A stretch of 64,000 bases of DNA. Origin: an uncultured Verrucomicrobiales bacterium (lineage in GTDB: Bacteria > Verrucomicrobiota > Verrucomicrobiia > Verrucomicrobiales > Akkermansiaceae). The translations under genes were made by a program, and so were the position numbers. The notes beneath the pieces were generated by a model. It was given only the letters and a program-made list of their open reading frames with translations, was not told the DNA's origin and ran no database searches. The first letter of the stretch is position 1, and the number at the start of each line of letters is the position of its first letter. The stretch lies in NCBI GenBank assembly GCA_949373085.1, contig CASICJ010000002.1:124001-188000 (forward strand). The letters run 5' to 3'. Positions 15,187 through 17,650 of the stretch are shown here, piece after piece.

Positions 15187-15615
15187 ATGAAAGCAACAGT
15201 AATATTGTTCGCCCTCGTTTCACTTCTTGCCTCCTGCAGCCAGAAAGGCAACCCCGTTGCTCCGGCAGCCAATACCGGTAATCAATATGGGGTCCCAAAT
15301 TCCGGAGCTCCGGGAGGTTACAATCCTCCCTATCAGCCGGTTGCCCCGATCAATCCTCCTGCAACTCAATTACCCGCCCCCTACGGAACTCCAGCTGTTG
15401 CAATCGCACCTTACACACCCCCAACTACCACTCCGGCCCCAGCTCCAGCCCCGTCCCCCGATTTAAACGGGAACGTTTACACGATTAAGGCTGGCGATTC
15501 TCTTTGGGGAATCGCACGTAAGTTTGGAACATCCGTAAATGCTGTCAAGGAAACGAACGGTATGACAAGCAATACCATTATTGAAGGACGTAGTCTCATA
15601 ATTCCCGGAAGATAA
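15187..15615 (+). CDS. LysM-domain lipoprotein
   Basis: Lipobox VSLLASC; Pro-rich linker; C-terminal YTIKAGDSLWGIARKFGTSVNAVKETNGMTSNTIIEGRSLIIP. Confidence 0.9.
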   Translation: MKATVILFALVSLLASCSQKGNPVAPAANTGNQYGVPNSGAPGGYNPPYQPVAPINPPATQLPAPYGTPAVAIAPYTPPTTTPAPAPAPSPDLNGNVYTIKAGDSLWGIARKFGTSVNAVKETNGMTSNTIIEGRSLIIPGR

Positions 15616-15683: not shown

Positions 15684-16615
15684 ATGAAAATTTTTCTGAC
15701 GGCCCTTCTCTCTCTCTTCCCGCCCTCACCCAAGAAATACCGAACGATAGAGAAAAAATTCTCGATGCCCTCCTAAACGCACCTGATCGAGCTTCACTAT
15801 ACCAAGCGATCAAAGCAGGAAAAGCCGCATCTCTTCCGGATCAACTGTTTCTTGAAGCTCGTTTTGTCTTTCTTGTAAACGAAGATAATAGCGCTGCACT
15901 GGCTACGCTCTCACCAGAGCTTGAAGCGCACCTCCCAAAATTTTCTCCAGACAACACCATGCTCTTTGCAGTAAGGGAAGATTTCGCAAGCATCGTGCAA
16001 TACACTAAGGCTCTATCCGCCCTTCAAAAAAACGAAATCACACTTTTTAAAAAACATATTACTGAAGCTTTTTAGCTAGCCCCTTCCCACGCCGCCCAAT
16101 TCGCACCCTTGATCGATGACATCCGTATCAATGAAGCGATAAAAAATTTTACCTTAAATCTTAACCTAAAATTTGAAGACCAAAAGCGAGGGGGTGAATC
16201 AAAGTCTTTAAAATCTATCGCAGGGGACTCACCAGCTTTTCTCATTCATTTCTGGAATCCTTGGGTGAACCAATCCATGGCAGCAATGAGAGTATTTCTG
16301 AAACTTTGCGCCACTCTCATCGAAAATAAAATTCCCGTAGCTTCCATTCTTTTGGGCAGCACAAGTGCAGACAGACGGGCTGGAGATGATTTTAGAGCTC
16401 AGAAAAAACACGAAAACACAGGGCACTGGCTCGTCGATACTGAGAAGTTATCATTGGGATCGTTAATGCGCCTTTCCTCTTTCCCAACTGTTGTTTTAGT
16501 ATCAGACAAAGGGAAGATCCTCTTCAATGGAGACCCTGCCAATCGCCGCCTTTGGGAAACTTTAACAGCCATTAAACCAGAAATAAATTTCCCTACGATA
16601 GATGTCGTACTTTAA
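15684..16615 (+). pseudogene. Thioredoxin/TlpA-like fold secreted protein, disrupted by an N-terminal frameshift and an in-frame TAG (16073-16075)
   Basis: MKIFLTALLSLFP / ALTQEIPNDREKILDALLNAPDRASLYQAIKAGKA...KNEITLFKKHITEAF*LAPSHAAQFAPLIDDIRINEAIKNFTLNLNLKFEDQKRGGESKSLKSIAGDSPAFLIHFWNPWVNQSMAAMRVFLKLC.... The TAG is in the same frame as the downstream ORF 16109-16615. Confidence 0.65.
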
Positions 16616-16753
16616 AAAAAAGATGAAAAAAGCGCCTCGGTACTAAAAAATAGCGAATAAGGCCCAAAATATTTGATTGAAAGCATGTGAGATTAAACTT
16701 GAACTATGGTCATGTATTCGGCTTTCTTATTAAAACCAATCGATTAGACAGTA

Positions 16754-17593
16754 GTGTCCCCTTACGACGAACCATCTCCTCAAGAACTTCATGCCCTCGC
16801 CATTCTATGGAACGAGGGCCCAAGTACAGTAGGTTTCGTACATGAAATAATGAATTCCGATGGTGGTGATCGCACCTACACCACCGCCCTAGCTGTCATG
16901 CGCAACCTTGAGAAAAAGAGGCTTGCTGTTCGGAATACTCAGGGACGAGCACATGTCTACGAAGCTAAGGTGAGTCGCGAAATCATCCTCAGGCCCCGCC
17001 TACAGGACCTCGTTCAAAACAGTTTTGGAGGAAGCCTTGGACAGGCAATCCTCTCCCTAATCTCAGTTGGCGTCATGACGCCCGAAGAGAAAACCGCGGT
17101 AACCCGCGTAATTAAACAGCACAAAGCCATGGCTGCAAAAAAGAAGACCACAAAAAAGAAGGCCGCCAAAAAGGCCGCCAAAAAACCAGTGGCTACCAAG
17201 AAAAAGGTAGCCAAGAAGAAAGTCGCTAGAAAAGCGGCTGCTAAAAAAGTAGCTAAAAAGCCCGCCAAGAAAAAGGTAGCTAAAAAAGCCGCTAAGAAAA
17301 AGGTAGCTAAAAAGCCCGCCAAGAAAAAGGTAGCTAAAAAGCCCGCCAAGAAAAAGGTAGCTAAAAAGCCCGCCAAGAAAAAGGTAGCTAAAAAAGCCGC
17401 TAAGAAAAAGGTAGCTAAAAAGCCCGCCAAGAAAAAGGTAGCTAAAAAAGCCGCTAAGAAAAAGGTAGCTAAAAAAGCCGCTAAGAAAAAAGTAGCTAAA
17501 AAGCCCGCCAAGAAAAAGGTAGCTAAAAAAGCCGCCAAGAAAAAGGTAGCCAAAAAAGCCGCTAAGAAAAAAGTAGCTAAAAAGCGTAAGTAA
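16754..17593 (+). CDS. BlaI/MecI/CopY-type winged-helix protein fused to a histone H1-like Lys/Ala-rich C-terminal tail
   Basis: N-terminal ~120 aa: SPQELHALAILWNEGPSTVGFVHEIMN...YTTALAVMRNLEKKRLAVRNTQGRAHVYEAKVSREIILRPRLQDLVQNSFGGS, the BlaI/MecI pattern. C-terminus is (AKKKVAKK[A/P])n. Confidence 0.85.
   Translation: MSPYDEPSPQELHALAILWNEGPSTVGFVHEIMNSDGGDRTYTTALAVMRNLEKKRLAVRNTQGRAHVYEAKVSREIILRPRLQDLVQNSFGGSLGQAILSLISVGVMTPEEKTAVTRVIKQHKAMAAKKKTTKKKAAKKAAKKPVATKKKVAKKKVARKAAAKKVAKKPAKKKVAKKAAKKKVAKKPAKKKVAKKPAKKKVAKKPAKKKVAKKAAKKKVAKKPAKKKVAKKAAKKKVAKKAAKKKVAKKPAKKKVAKKAAKKKVAKKAAKKKVAKKRK
17264..17587 (+). repeat. Coding minisatellite: 12 x 27-bp tandem units encoding AKKKVAKK[A/P/R]
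   Basis: Units with last residue A,P,P,P,A,P,A,A,P,A,A,R in order; 12 x 27 = 324 bp, followed by one Lys codon and TAA at 17591-17593. Confidence 0.95.
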
Positions 17594-17621: not shown

Positions 17622-17650
17622 AAGGGACACTCCGTAGGAGTGTCCCTTTT
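17622..17650 (+). terminator. Rho-independent terminator after the BlaI-H1 fusion gene
   Basis: AAGGGACACTCC-GTA-GGAGTGTCCCTTTT perfect stem plus T run. Confidence 0.85.

Follow-up and report, generated by a model that had tools for sequence, protein, structure and literature searches.

The gene at positions 16754 to 17593 of the window (the whole stretch of 64,000 nucleotides that was analysed, G000:C2:124001-188000, from the 3.4-Mb draft genome G000) encodes a repressor head of the BlaI/MecI type that runs in frame into a long, histone H1-like Lys/Ala tail. At the level of sequence our analysis established the fusion and its conservation, a constrained internal ATG, decay of the BlaI half in relatives that keep the tail, and palindromes both upstream of the gene and dispersed over chromosomes. 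The best reading, to which we give a probability of about one half, is that the gene would specify an autoregulated, sequence-anchored nucleoid protein together with a nested, free H1-like protein. The features of the locus are as follows, with the strand in brackets where one applies.

15187–15615 (+): LysM-domain gene (PF01476), the second neighbour conserved across the family
16109–16615 (+): thioredoxin-like gene on the 5' side, listed with a TTG start (PF13905 below cut-off), neighbour conserved across the family
16593–16610: operator-like palindrome CTACGATAGATGTCGTAC of MecI-like geometry, with counterparts in orthologs (core TACGA-N6-TCGTA; TACGATAGATGTCGTA at 16594–16609), within the 3' end of the thioredoxin-like gene
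16690–16728 (+): presumptive promoter region AGATTAAACTTGAACT...TATTCGGCTTTCTT, about 30–65 nt 5' of the GTG, conserved in same-genus orthologs
16754–17593 (+): full-length gene, BlaI/MecI-type head with in-frame H1-like Lys/Ala tail
16754–17128 (+): BlaI/MecI winged-helix and dimerisation domain, residues 1–125
17108–17158 (+): codons 119–135, on either side of the internal ATG, where synonymous change is suppressed
17129–17593 (+): nested in-frame ORF for a putative free H1-like protein of 154 aa, MAAKKKTTKKK...
17210–17585 (+): tandem DNA repeats of 27/54/81 bp coding AKKKVAKK[A/P], from repeat analysis of the tail DNA
17622–17648 (+): intrinsic terminator hairpin, then TTCTCTTTTC, from a pattern scan (such patterns are frequent in shuffled DNA too)

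A conserved fusion of a BlaI-type head to a Lys/Ala tail

We found that the gene reads as a single ORF of 279 aa from its GTG start, without stop or frameshift. The first-pass annotation had described a BlaI/MecI domain continuing in the same frame into a Lys/Ala tail, and both halves of that description held: Pfam Penicillinase_R (PF03965) matches residues 8–122 with 64.1 bits (E 1.9e-17, above the cut-off of 22.6), and residues 126–279 form a tail of 154 aa with 82 K, 43 A, 16 V and 7 P and a predicted pI of 12.0. A profile of the domain retrieved Mycobacterium tuberculosis Rv1846c, MecI and BlaI from the PDB, and the AlphaFold2 model, in which the winged helix is confident (blocks up to 92 pLDDT) and the Lys/Ala tail disordered (pLDDT below 50), had its best PDB fold matches in MecI 1okr (1okr_B, E 5.2e-6) and BlaI 1sd4 (6.7e-6). 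The predicted recognition helix of the head comprises residues 42–54. There is no cysteine in the whole protein and the C-terminal CXC copper motifs of CopY are therefore missing; the CopY model TIGR02698 scored 28 bits against its cut-off of 121.95. On the tail, Pfam HC2 (PF07382) reached 7.9 bits, well under its gathering cut-off of 40.

Among the 58 relatives searched, the in-frame fusion was present in nearly all members of the same genus, and in other genera at 47–51% identity; some copies are broken off by contig ends within the repeat. We conclude that the fusion is neither a chance product nor an artefact of a single assembly, because it recurs in this way in relatives of several genera. 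The two-part architecture, for which a search in other Verrucomicrobiota had been suggested, is conserved throughout the Akkermansiaceae and in two further families of the order. In named genomes the best 80 loci all belong to Akkermansiaceae or their relatives, including isolates of Haloferula, Luteolibacter and Roseibacillus persicicus, and the tail is present in those of the 80 whose end can be read. BlaI relatives farther off in the phylum have none, and no match to the fusion gene was found in the genomes of genus g3, which from its phylogenetic place we take to be Akkermansia. Family f3 carries the gene with linkers too divergent to align; in family f6 the gene is borne by G043 and was not detected in two genomes.

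No BlaR1-type protease was found near the fusion gene, in agreement with the claim that a sensor partner is lacking, and the single M56 (BlaR1-type) protease of genome G000 lies on another contig, C23, where a conventional BlaI paralog adjoins it (about 48.2–49.4 kb; L001/L152). The terminator that had been assigned to the gene was recovered as the hairpin listed above. The presumptive promoter was not picked up by a sigma-70 consensus scan.

Lys/Ala-rich segments occur on other proteins of the lineage as well. The primary sigma factor RpoD (L175, L204), encoded from G000:C2:122244 onward, outside the window and about 1.8 kb before its first position, has a KA-rich N-terminal extension of about 100 residues ahead of sigma region 1.1, with a weak Pfam HC2 match (E 0.0026). 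The metabolic enzyme pyruvate phosphate dikinase has a short one in several genera of the order (L205, from G000:C62:13721 onward; L174, L179, L181-L187), and DksA/TraR-type zinc-finger proteins carry long KA-rich N-terminal repeats (L158, at G000:C41, about 15744–16100; L163, L166, L168, L176). Three further proteins have similar KA-rich N-terminal extensions, one HU/IHF-like (L198 in G039), one GyrA/ParC-like (L190 in G056) and one other putative DNA-binding protein (L207 in G462). Standalone KA-rich histone-like ORFs are present in G365 (L177), G515 (L178), G503 (L189) and G056 (L206); a DNA pattern search proved suitable for standalone tails, since composition bias spoils searches of the order with KA-rich protein.

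A potential explanation that would not need to invoke a special histone role is that Lys/Ala repeats are added to many nucleic-acid proteins of this lineage for a shared physical reason, such as tethering to nucleoid or RNA, polyphosphate binding or condensate formation. The extensions seen within genome G000 (on RpoD, pyruvate phosphate dikinase and a DksA/TraR protein) and among its relatives (on proteins that include HU-like and GyrA/ParC-like ones) agree with this, as does the H1-like protein AlgP, which spaces polyphosphate granules in Pseudomonas (PMC9239181). However, the fusion tail is C-terminal, about 150 aa long, has its own conserved start codon and outlives the head in family f3, and we regard a generic appendage as improbable.

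The internal ATG and a candidate nested product

The Met at the junction of head and tail (ATG 17129) is found in 85 of the 87 distinct family orthologs whose junction can be read, whereas elsewhere in the ortholog tails there is no Met in 9,928 residues. All genus orthologs with a readable junction read HKA-M-[AP]AKKKTT. When synonymous differences were counted in 7-codon windows over 22 genus sequences, those covering codons 119–135 fell to 0.30–0.48 of expectation, the lowest values in the gene, compared with a mean of 1.03 and a minimum of 0.54 for windows in the BlaI domain; the suppression at the junction was reproduced with a second normalisation. In 64 other family orthologs the junction region is also strongly constrained, and there the constraint reaches further upstream. 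In family f3, M-A-[AV]-K-K is retained despite the unalignable linker; in one member (G054) AAGGAG lies 8–9 nt 5' of the ATG, and in another (G057) a leader-like CAAACCACC precedes it, in the context CAAACCACCATGG.

Family f3 also contains genes in which the head is broken. In G037 and G444 (genus g12) the BlaI half is wrecked by frameshifts and stops, but the tail ORF still reads through from the same ATG, and in G045 (genus g19) a single frameshift in the BlaI half, possibly an assembly error, is accompanied by a tail ORF that is intact from the ATG.

We weighed these observations against the view that only the full-length product is made, the junction Met being left over from an ancient gene fusion or belonging to a conserved linker. 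In its favour, no Shine-Dalgarno sequence was found 5' of the window's internal ATG, nearly every ortholog has an uninterrupted frame from head to tail, so that selection presumably keeps the full-length product, and G403 keeps both parts of the fusion with no start codon at the junction. Neither a relic nor a linker residue would readily account for the synonymous suppression around the ATG, for a Met retained across linkers that cannot be aligned, or for a tail ORF left intact beside a decayed BlaI half. G365 points the same way: TTG replaces the junction ATG in its short-tailed BlaI fusion, and the genome also has a standalone KA-rich ORF. A full-length product alone thus seems to us quite unlikely.

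Besides the fusion, the tail alone is probably produced from the internal ATG, since the junction Met is near-invariant, constraint acts there at the DNA level, and the BlaI half decays with the tail ORF intact. We consider it likely that the internal start is used; the conservation of this ATG fits separate translation of the tail, and for the window's own species such initiation is a prediction. The single fused product of the first-pass annotation therefore stands in part: the frame is open as proposed, and the outcome named there as contrary to it, separate translation of the two parts, is partly supported by the internal ATG, the constraint around it and the decay of BlaI.

Palindromes upstream of the gene and across chromosomes

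Outside the window's genus, 31 of 66 family orthologs have a CTAC..GTAG palindrome upstream (shuffled sequences gave a mean of 0.97 and a maximum of 3). These lie mostly 120–140 nt 5' of the domain and are intergenic in those inspected; many genus members have CCTACGATAGATSCCGTAC at the equivalent spot, within the terminal (3') part of the gene upstream. In family f3, TTACTAG..GTAGTAG directly follows a TTGACC -35 element, and in the two genomes with a wrecked BlaI half, G037 and G444, this upstream element is changed. Most upstream elements fit the frame TACNA-N6-TNGTA. An earlier idea, that N4, N7 and N10 spacers between CTAC and GTAG reflect coding-frame indels, was dropped as most sites agree in this frame. 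Compared with shuffled sequences, the inverted repeats that overlap the genus promoter (AAGTTTAACCTTGAACTT) stood out weakly, and we do not put them forward.

The 16-bp spacing of TACNA-N6-TNGTA is that of the staphylococcal mec operator (TACTACATATGTAGTA), of which the window palindrome lacks the inner ACA/TGT. We also considered a terminator or a REP element and rejected both, because the palindrome has no T-run, lies mostly inside ORFs genome-wide and varies in its inner bases from site to site. The published CopY/BlaI operator core is TACANNTGTA (PMC7253601), which was not found in the candidate operator TACGA-N6-TCGTA. We think that the BlaI head probably binds the upstream palindrome.

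The same motif is dispersed over the chromosomes of many relatives. Across 14 f1 genomes that carry the gene and fall in genera other than the window's, CTACGATNNNNATCGTAG at no more than one mismatch has 185 sites against 3 for a reversed-pattern control, and G043, the gene-bearing member of f6, has 22 against 1. The two f6 genomes in which the gene was not detected have 0, and 23 Akkermansia genomes without the gene have 6 against 5. As the f1 genomes share ancestry, the link between gene and motif amounts to roughly two independent lineages (f1 and f6). The sites examined are mostly inside open frames. In a de novo count on an evenly spaced 400-kb sample of G301, TACG-N8-CGTA ranked first among the spaced palindromes formed from the 256 four-base words, taken across the spacings tested (15 against about 0.8), and the enrichment was limited to spacing 8; samples of G427 and G077, in which the fusion is undetected, held 2 each. 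On the complete G301 chromosome CTACGA-N6-TCGTAG occurs 22 times against 0 for the control, with one site between about 3.96 and 6.16 Mb, a possible regional bias; GC skew in G301 was too weak for placing ori and ter, and we make no macrodomain claim.

Within the window's own genus, enrichment of the dispersed motif is weaker and only modest. Genome G000 as a whole has 25 sites against 8 for the control at no more than two mismatches (binomial p 0.005), and three other genomes of the genus have 9 against 1.85 at N8 (p 1.3e-4); we rely on these counts, as a 458-kb sample of G000 was partly picked from contigs with known matches. Gene-bearing f3 genomes have about one TACTA-N6-TAGTA each, so that dispersion does not extend to every carrier of the gene. 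G403, which has the fusion, lacks the dispersed motif too. A limitation of the reversed-pattern control is that it gives high counts for TACTA-type patterns. In G515 (genus g10) TACTA-N6-TAGTA occurs 56 times against 7 for this control, which suggests a changed recognition sequence in that genus; G512 and G515 both show the motif and were excluded from the totals, which take in genomes searched for the gene.

These data bear on a simpler proposal, that the protein is a local autorepressor only, the head repressing its own promoter and the tail strengthening nonspecific DNA contact, with the dispersed palindrome belonging to another protein or reflecting sequence bias. Such a restricted role suits the f3 orthologs, whose genomes each hold roughly one strong palindrome, located at the promoter of the ortholog itself, the modest enrichment in the window's own genome, and the small regulons of the BlaI regulators of C. 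thermocellum (PMC8457756). It is harder to reconcile with a dispersed motif that is the same as that found 5' of the gene, is of BlaI-type geometry and is enriched at spacing 8 only, a preference for one single spacing that codon bias would not select, or with a motif that accompanies the gene in two families and is missing in Akkermansia and in the gene-less f6 genomes. On balance we hold this proposal to be rather unlikely, though less so than the two alternatives discussed above.

Local autoregulation looks general and dispersion derived, because f3 shows about one site per genome and the enrichment in the window's genus is weak. For relatives such as Haloferula we see an even chance that the dispersed sites are bound by the fusion protein; for the window's own species such binding is a more tentative suggestion. 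The earlier proposal of a sequence-specific head with a nonspecific tail has thus gained backing beyond the architecture itself, from a palindrome of MecI geometry that stands before the gene and is dispersed in gene-bearing relatives.

Proposed role and comparison with known systems

In the reading that we prefer, the full-length protein would dimerise through its BlaI head, which would bind the TACNA-N6-TNGTA palindrome upstream of its own gene and repress it, and in many relatives would also dock at dozens of additional chromosomal palindromes, where the disordered Lys/Ala tail may grip and compact the DNA nearby. Initiation at ATG 17129 would release the tail alone as a free protein like H1 or Hc2. 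As the tail would then be made from within a gene that the head represses, the head would help to determine how much free histone-like protein there is.

Bacterial H1-like proteins are usually regarded as nonspecific condensers, and here one appears to be joined to a head that reads sequence. With predicted sites and two products predicted from one frame, the targeting and dosing of an H1-like protein become testable in cultured Verrucomicrobiota. If the reading is right, a family of repressors associated chiefly with small resistance regulons would include a chromosome-scale protein, and gene callers would have overlooked a nested product. That this is a new class of chromosome organiser, in which a repressor-derived dimer sits at dozens of palindromes with long H1-like arms and a free arm is made from an internal start, all in one autoregulated frame, is possible but doubtful.

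The first-pass annotation knew of no described system of this kind. Searches of the open-access literature turned up no description of a BlaI-H1 fusion; as for the Lys/Ala appendage, it is not unique, being seen also on RpoD, DksA/TraR and pyruvate phosphate dikinase proteins. The fusion joins two known kinds of protein, BlaI repressors and H1-like nucleoid proteins, and KA-rich appendages elsewhere in the lineage temper its novelty.

With the BlaI/MecI/CopY family (PF03965; MecI 1okr/2d45, BlaI 1sd4/1xsd, M. tuberculosis Rv1846c 2g9w) the protein shares domain, fold, dimerisation helices, a palindromic candidate operator and evidence of autoregulation. It differs in its 154-aa Lys/Ala tail, where family proteins end soon after the dimerisation helices, in having neither a BlaR1/MecR1 partner nor the CXC motif of CopY, in a candidate core without the inner TACANNTGTA, and in the operator-like sites dispersed in relatives. 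The tailed HU proteins HupB and HupS, and AlgP, likewise combine a DNA-binding domain with a disordered Lys/Ala-rich tail, but HU heads are not sequence-specific repressors, and we know of no nested start in the HU-type tailed proteins or AlgP. The chromosome organisers MatP/matS, Noc and SlmA are sequence-specific binders with dozens of dispersed palindromic sites; their folds differ, they have no Lys/Ala tail, and we claim no regional clustering for the sites described here.

EspR of M. tuberculosis is an autoregulated helix-turn-helix regulator and nucleoid-associated protein that occupies at least 165 loci, beyond promoters (PMC3315491). With its many sites outside promoters, it is an earlier example of a regulator that serves as a nucleoid protein, although it belongs to an unrelated family and has no H1-like tail. 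To our knowledge EspR has no nested product.

The chlamydial protein Hc2 (hctB; PF07382) comes from a member of the same PVC superphylum as the window's organism, and like the fusion tail it has Lys/Ala-rich repeats of variable number. Hc2 is 165–237 aa long and built from variable lysine-rich pentamers (PMC2848022). It is a standalone protein, whereas the tail described here is nested in a repressor gene and scores below the PF07382 cut-off. With bacterial H1-like proteins in general, the fusion tail shares a Lys/Ala-rich, repetitive, disordered and highly basic chain.
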